Below, piece after piece: positions 1 through 63,306 of a DNA stretch of 64,000 bases. Both the position numbers and the translations under genes were made by a program. How positions within the stretch are numbered: position 1 is the first letter of the stretch; each line of letters starts with the position of its first letter. The DNA comes from Betaproteobacteria bacterium. Lineage in GTDB: Bacteria > Pseudomonadota > Gammaproteobacteria > Burkholderiales > Casimicrobiaceae. The stretch covers positions 1 through 64,000 of the forward strand of contig JAOUIA010000010.1 in the NCBI GenBank assembly GCA_029884335.1, in the 5' to 3' direction. The notes under the pieces are model-generated. The model was given only the letters and a program-made list of their open reading frames with translations, was not told the origin of the DNA and did no database searches.

Positions 1-292
1 GCTGGTCAAGGCGGGACAGGCCATCTGGCGAGGAGGCGACACGGCGTCCGGCGTGCCCGCGTGCTCGTCGTGCCACGGCCCGTCCGGCGCGGGCATCCCG
101 AAGAGCTACCCGCGCCTGGCCGGGCAGTACGCCGACTACACGTACGCGCAGCTGCGCGCGTTCAAGACCGGGGAGCGGGCCGCCGACAAGGGCGGCAAGG
201 ACGTCAAGGGCCGCGTGATGGTCGGCGTCGTCGAGCACCTGACCGACGCGCAGATGAAGGCCGTCGCGGAGTACGCCTCGGGGCTGCGCTAG
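1..292 (+). CDS. Cytochrome c4-like protein, C-terminal part (5' end outside window)
   Basis: The frame is open from base 2, so the gene starts upstream of the window; the internal GTG used by the ORF track is not the true start. What is visible is one c-type haem domain with the motif CSSCH, followed by a PRLAGQYADYTYAQL stretch and a late Met (GRVMVGVV) that could be the sixth haem ligand. This pattern matches the second haem domain of dihaem cytochrome c4, a periplasmic electron carrier that feeds terminal oxidases. The protein ends in YASGLR with a TAG stop. A monohaem class I cytochrome remains possible because the first domain is not seen. Confidence 0.8.
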   Translation, partial: LVKAGQAIWRGGDTASGVPACSSCHGPSGAGIPKSYPRLAGQYADYTYAQLRAFKTGERAADKGGKDVKGRVMVGVVEHLTDAQMKAVAEYASGLR

Positions 293-383
293 CCGGCCGA
301 CGCAAAGCGTGTTCCTGCGCATGGCGATGACCCGAGACGCCTGCGTTGCACGTTTTGCATCGGGGTGAAGCCAGGGCGGCCGC

Positions 384-608
384 CTAGGGAAGCTCTGCGT
401 AACCCGCGGATGCGCGACGCGCTTCCCCGGGACGATGGCTAGGCGCGGTCCGAAGGGCGTGGCAGGCCCCACGCCCAAGGACCGCAACACCGCCAGCGCC
501 CGGGGAAGCACGTCCCGAAGGGCAGCCGAGCGAACTGCACATGATGGATTGCGGACAGTCTTGCATGCGAGGCTGCGCGCGCCGTGAGGTTACGCAGAGG
601 TTCCCTAG
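384..608. mobile_element. MITE-like element with terminal inverted repeats and CTAG duplication
   Basis: A 217-bp segment (388-604) begins with GGAAGCTCTGCGTAACC and ends with the inverse GGTTACGCAGAGGTTCC, a 17-bp terminal inverted repeat with one mismatch. It is flanked on both sides by CTAG (384-387 and 605-608), as expected for a 4-bp target duplication. The interior has further dyad symmetry: GCTTCCCCGGG (421-431) pairs with CCCGGGGAAGC (499-509), GCGGTCC pairs with GGACCGC, and GGGCGTGG pairs with CCACGCCC. The whole element could therefore fold back on itself. No transposase is encoded. CTAG duplications are typical of IS5-family transposition (YTAR targets), so a non-autonomous IS5-type element is inferred. 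It occupies most of the 484-bp gap 293-776; nothing else is recognised in that gap. Confidence 0.7.
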
Positions 609-776
609 GGGCGGCCCGGCGGCGGCCGCCGGAAACTGCACGCAACAACGCGCGCGACGCGGTGCCGCAAGCCCGTTGGAGCCGCTTCGCATTGAGTTCC
701 TCGGCGCGGTTCGTTCCCGTCCCTGCGGGCGGCCCGGCCGCAAGCCGCGCCGCCCGCGGCTCTTCCGGAGTTCCCC

Positions 777-62671: not shown

Positions 62672-63306
62672 AGCTCGCCGAGCCCGACCACCTCGTCTTT
62701 GCCGCGACCACGCTCGCGCAGGGCATCGACTGGGTCGCCGACCTGACCGGCGCGGTCGCGCAGCCGGGCGGCAAGCACGTCGCGATGGGCACGCACAACG
62801 CGCTGCTCAGGCTCGGCGAGCGCGTGTACCTCGAGATCATCGCGATCGATCCCGAGGGGGCCAGGCCCGCGCGGCAGCGCTGGTTCGACCTCGACGACGG
62901 CGACCTGCGCGCCGACCTGCTCGACGCGCCCCGGCTCATCCACTGGGTCGCGCGCACGCGCGATCTCGATCGCGCCGTCGCCGAGGCGGGCTATGACCCG
63001 GGGCCGATCCTGCCGTTCGAGCGCGGTCCCTACCGCTGGCGCATCACCGTGCCCGACGACGGCTCGCGCCCGGGGCGCGGCGTGCTGCCCACGCTCATCC
63101 AATGGGACGTGCCCCAGCATCCCACCGACGCGCTGCCTGACAGCGGCATTGTGCTCGAGCAGCTTGCCGCGTCGCATCCCGACGCGAACCCGGTCCGCCG
63201 CTCGCTCGCGCGCCTCGGGCTCGAGGCGGCCATTCACGTCACCTACGATCGCGTGACGCGGCTGGCAGCGATGCTGCGCACGCCGCGCGGGCTGATTGCA
63301 CTCTAG
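62668..63306 (+). CDS. Glyoxalase-like domain protein
   Basis: 212 residues from a GTG overlapping the previous stop (GTGA). KLAEPDHLVFAATTLAQGIDWVADLTGAVAQPGGKHVAMGTHNALLRLG and YLEIIAIDPE resemble the Glyoxalase_3 group (PF13468), with His in DHLVFA and Glu in YLEIIA. Together with the VOC gene it forms a two-gene unit. Function unknown. Its TAG stop is shared with the convergent gene through the palindrome CTAG. Confidence 0.83.
   Translation: MKLAEPDHLVFAATTLAQGIDWVADLTGAVAQPGGKHVAMGTHNALLRLGERVYLEIIAIDPEGARPARQRWFDLDDGDLRADLLDAPRLIHWVARTRDLDRAVAEAGYDPGPILPFERGPYRWRITVPDDGSRPGRGVLPTLIQWDVPQHPTDALPDSGIVLEQLAASHPDANPVRRSLARLGLEAAIHVTYDRVTRLAAMLRTPRGLIAL

Follow-up and report, generated by a model that had tools for sequence, protein, structure and literature searches.

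The question raised by this locus is whether a short palindromic stretch in the window (the whole 64,000-nucleotide stretch of DNA that was analysed) is a mobile element and, if so, what its strongly folded interior signifies.

Structure of the Element and Its Host Repeat

A 217-bp element with 17-bp terminal inverted repeats, one mismatch between them and CTAG flanks had been proposed in a first-pass annotation of this DNA, and both the coordinates (window 388–604, with CTAG on either side) and a scan for the end pattern confirmed this proposal. The 19-base end pattern, allowing up to three mismatches, was found at just these two places in the 64-kb window, against a chance expectation of 0.01. 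The description of the element as gene-less was also sustained, as no Pfam match was obtained for the sole overlapping open reading frame scanned (541–780). Folding of the element strand gave −152.2 kcal/mol (z = −11.8 relative to 200 shuffled versions), and the predicted fold consists of a closed terminal stem and two arms. The fold-back interior, which had been called unusual, was borne out, and its conserved covarying arm is the main result of this work. The window copy was inserted mid-way in a second CTAG-bounded repeat family, hereafter repeat 2 (Table 1). Repeat 2 (window 289–703), with the ends CAGGYYGATGCAAAA..., has many copies in the own genome and in genome G049, and showed no match to the arm model described below.

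Table 1. Positions of the element, its arms and the surrounding repeat in the window.
Feature	Position	Strand	Remark
CTAG, left edge of repeat 2	289–292	+	cytochrome c gene stops at the TAG (290–292)
Repeat 2, left half	293–383	+	from the host-repeat alignment
Left target duplication, CTAG	384–387	.	single CTAG in 14 of 19 other host-repeat copies
Left terminal inverted repeat, GGAAGCTCTGCGTAACC	388–404	+	ends shared with IS5-family elements
Arm 1, covarying conserved hairpin	404–522	+	models R1 and R2: 128 and 118 bits
Arm 2, shortened second hairpin of the three-way fold	523–575	+	kept in the 129-bp copies
Right terminal inverted repeat, GGTTACGCAGAGGTTCC	588–604	-	one mismatch to the left repeat
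Right target duplication, CTAG	605–608	.	flanks listed across copies
Repeat 2, right half	609–699	+	decayed right flank CTCG at 700–703

Copies and Empty Sites

The own genome, a 3.66-Mb draft in 120 contigs with 95.6% completeness, contained fragments as well as nine full copies of the element (225–237 bp including flanks; mean identity 0.87) and at least five short copies of 129 bp without arm 1, the full and short copies lying in unrelated surroundings. Nearly all sites with matching ends in this genome were copies of the element; one orphan end was seen. Near relatives of the element were present in sister genomes. Of the 14 listed copies, three had CTAG as both left and right tetramer; in the others the two tetramers differed, mostly at one or two bases, from which we infer decay of the flanks of old insertions.

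Empty sites of two kinds were observed, in host-repeat copies and as an uninterrupted site in a sister genome. When the two flanks of the window copy were joined, the resulting sequence matched many places across the junction in the own and sister genomes, and the host-repeat alignment showed an intact, unduplicated CTAG at the insertion point in 14 of 19 other copies. The site of a further copy (G000:C51:36074) was uninterrupted in sister genome G045, where it reads CTAC at 85% identity. Many copies with the same ends, and empty sites in sister strains, were the signs of mobility for which the first-pass annotation had called; it had named a single copy together with conservation at the orthologous site in distant relatives as the contrary outcome, and the result clearly favours mobility. 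The element lies downstream of a cytochrome c gene, as would be expected of a non-mobile, conserved intergenic regulatory element of that locus, but the many copies with unrelated flanks, the nesting in another repeat and the uninterrupted sites elsewhere make this reading highly improbable.

At locus L011 (1499–1640), the start codon of a gene recognised by eye as accA-like is directly preceded by a 129-bp copy, and at L016 (1563–1650) a further inverted repeat (CCCCGCGAAGGCGGGGACCCAGTG...) comes after a truncated copy.

Target Sites and Gene Ends

About half of the copies were located at a CTAG in which the TAG provides the stop codon for a coding frame, the frames being judged from codon-position GC. 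CTAG was depleted approximately tenfold in the window (17 observed, 162 predicted from base composition), and 8 of the 14 CTAGs outside the element were stop codons. Because CTAG is so scarce in the window and the other CTAGs are already so often stop codons, a stop-codon preference beyond the CTAG target was rejected as unnecessary. Since few CTAGs occur in the genome and they often belong to stop codons, CTAG targeting steers insertions toward gene ends. The CTAG at 63303 appears to terminate coding frames of both strands. Judged by eye, five of seven full copies were antisense to the neighbouring gene, an orientation that does not suggest a messenger role.

Relationship to IS5-Family Elements

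In public genomes, the end pattern recurred in pairs spaced 1157–1203 bp, each pair flanked by CTA/TAG and accompanied by one transposase frame, and two transposases from these approximately 1.17-kb elements matched NCBIfam NF033581 with 346 and 330 bits (cut-off, 140). An intact 1180-bp transposase element with the same ends was present in G029, a relative that shares the family of the window's organism, and the complete genome G005 of this family contained three closely similar transposase elements with 4-base duplications of CTAG, TTAG and TGAG. An IS5 member with the same ends, as sought in the first-pass annotation, was accordingly found, in other genomes. Since the same ends bound IS5-family transposase elements of about 1.17 kb elsewhere, the window element was assigned to the IS5-type MITEs. 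The earlier view of a non-autonomous, CTAG-duplicating, IS5-type element is supported by the same-end copies, the empty sites and these IS5-family elements of other bacteria.

A mobilising IS5 transposase elsewhere in the genome had also been suggested; this part did not hold in the draft, where PF01609, PF05598 and protein-search matches were all absent, although a draft of 120 contigs and 95.6% completeness leaves this absence uncertain. PF01609 transposases were likewise absent from four complete multi-copy genomes (G105, G085, G430 and G212). DUF772 transposases of the genus were considered as partners and rejected, as their ends differ. Among the hallmarks of an IS5-family MITE, we observed the multiple copies, the lack of a transposase gene, the terminal inverted repeats, ends matching an autonomous IS5-family element (in other genomes) and a 4-base duplication of the CTAG/YTAR type, often decayed in older copies; a matching transposase in the same genome, which is usual but not required, was not found in the draft. 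By analogy with this family, an IS5-family transposase acting in trans would bind the 17-bp ends and move the element, which would be joined into a CTAG-like target with duplication of the target; the ends and the duplication are observed, and the enzymatic steps are modelled on the IS5 family.

Distribution of the Arm and of the Ends

Within the family, a first covariance model detected the arm in 16 of 64 genomes. Within the order (probably Burkholderiales; the named matching loci are from Paucibacter and Burkholderiales 68-10), a second model detected it in 114 of 399 genomes, spread over 58 of 158 genera, and many genomes had at least nine scored places. The arm also occurred in 47 of 399 genomes sampled from the phylum, including other classes, while plasmid and phage searches gave one partial match and none, respectively. 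In many relatives, two inverted arms were contained in elements of about 250–290 bp; two inverted arms closed by a terminal repeat are thus the common plan, of which the window copy keeps arm 1 whole and arm 2 in shortened form. A hairpin element of the form CTRGTGT...CACTAG directly adjoins a copy of the element at L003 (1720–1925) and L005 (1735–1920), with a CTAG-like tetramer common to both; the hairpin in L003 matched the second arm model (E = 2.6e-7), and that in L005 the first arm model only (E = 5.5e-5).

The terminal repeats around the arms were of at least seven kinds: GGAACCTCTGAATAAG-like, GGGCGTGTTAACAC-like, GGGCTCGTTAATG, GAGCCTATTTCAG, GAGCCTCTAACATAATG, GAGCCTGYCTCACAAAATC and AACGTGTTCAATG. 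In the complete genome G237, GTTAAC-type ends lay beside transposase frames, one pair being spaced 826 bp and flanked left and right by CTAG, and G005 carried transposase elements ending GGGCAACGCTGAACAAG and also a structured element ending GGGAAACGCTGAACAAG. G237 contained 35 PF01609 matches, and many near-identical short transposase frames lay beside GGGTCTGTTAAC ends. Derivation of the interior from an IS was rejected, as the arm model had no match inside the IS transposase loci searched; the interior is best read as a conserved self-folding arm rather than a shrunken transposase gene.

Covariation and the Possible Role of the Fold

In related elements of sister genomes, the stems were altered and the pairing was retained. 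In an alignment of 15 sequences made without structure, 92% of cells paired, compared with 82.5% in shuffles and 37–43% with the partners slid, and 14 of 35 pairs had changed on both sides. An independent structure-free alignment of 31 sequences showed such changes in 30 of 38 predicted pairs, and 72 sequences fitted to the model, a set that favours structure by construction, in 34 of 35. The residues of the asymmetric internal loops ranked with the best-conserved positions when genera were compared. Pairing kept across lineages, together with these loops, points to selection on the folded strand, as judged by sequence comparison; and because compensatory changes were seen across many genera and within several different terminal repeats, the fold has probably been selected as a single-stranded structure.

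An ordinary IS5 MITE with a neutral palindrome might mimic this pattern, as inverted repeats are known to undergo template-switch correction, and switching or correction between them at replication would maintain pairing with the fold unselected. In keeping with this, the strand asymmetry of changes was not clearly unlike that of the unpaired control: single changes gave G-U versus A-C counts of 22:5 in paired columns and 12:5 for the same kinds in unpaired columns. However, correction should also have removed the asymmetric loops, yet their residues are highly conserved, and the loops fell mostly into two matched classes (43 and 13 of the 72 sequences). We therefore regard neutral maintenance as rather unlikely and prefer selection on the fold.

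As the 22:5 and 12:5 ratios are not clearly different, the G-U excess was not upheld as proof of RNA, and the strand-preference evidence that RNA rather than DNA folds is suggestive only. The fold would most likely form in RNA arising by read-through of neighbouring genes. The arm may itself be a functional non-coding RNA or RNA-processing element, carried as cargo by several IS5-type MITEs and comparable to the folded, processed transcripts of ERIC and NEMIS. The covariation and the better folding of the plus strand in all nine own copies agree with such a function, as does the count of 34 G-U to 4 A-C in arm A against 30 to 30 in arm B, a count biased by the definition of arm A as the better-scoring arm. 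On the other hand, no promoter- or terminator-like site was found in the element, no Rfam family matched, and the copies are mostly antisense to their neighbours, so that we entertain this function only tentatively. Held with equal caution is a broader reading, in which the element is defined by its inside: a phylum-wide module of two inverted arms of about 115 nt, repeatedly re-capped with different IS5-subgroup ends, moved by different transposases, and with its fold, probably of RNA, under selection. Taken together, our data support the identification of the window element as a non-autonomous IS5-type MITE with a conserved self-folding arm inside, whose fold is probably selected (probability, approximately 0.8).

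Significance and Comparison with Known Repeats

Ends are normally what defines a MITE, and the interior is regarded as a leftover. Here the interior is conserved across more than 50 genera and the ends vary, the reverse of the usual definition. The conserved interior arm is what is new; mobile MITEs of the IS5 type are already known. Should selection act on the fold, the elements would have a function, either in spreading themselves or in being tolerated by the host. The arm model also makes it possible to annotate a large repeat family that apparently has no name yet.

Literature searches with short consensus strings of the family returned unrelated matches only. GTAG- and CGTC-tagged REPs are also palindromic and dispersed in many genomes, but they are 20–40 bp long, with stems of 5–13 bp and unpaired tags at one end (PMC3733652), and the size and ends of the window element differ from those of such RAYT-linked REP/REPIN palindromes. 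ERIC and NEMIS (Correia) sequences are likewise short mobile repeats, dispersed and able to fold internally (PMC10969869); by description, their ends and targets set them apart. BRE, a GC-rich, mostly intergenic repeat of Bordetella and other Betaproteobacteria, resembles the window family, but differs by description in being 75–91 bp long and sometimes tandem (PMC3110155). Some intergenic repeat families of Pseudomonas fluorescens have ends in common with IS elements, and R200 (320 bp) and R178 (101 bp, with an internal inverted repeat) were compared by description (PMC2718517). As the comparison rests on descriptions, BRE or R178/R200 may be a relative of the wider family already described under another name.

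The closest system in the literature is MITEPsy1 of Pseudomonas syringae, which, like the window element, is a MITE tied to an IS5-family element (ISPsy2) (PMC3189936). By its ends and description, MITEPsy1 is a shorter element of 100 nt, and the accessible part of that report describes no conserved two-arm interior (PMC3189936). It was caught with an entrapment plasmid in P. syringae and, according to the same report, duplicates 4 bases on insertion at CTAG or YTAA, and its ends, GGAAGGTCTGAAAAAGCC, resemble the GGAAGCTCTGCGTAACC of the window element (PMC3189936).
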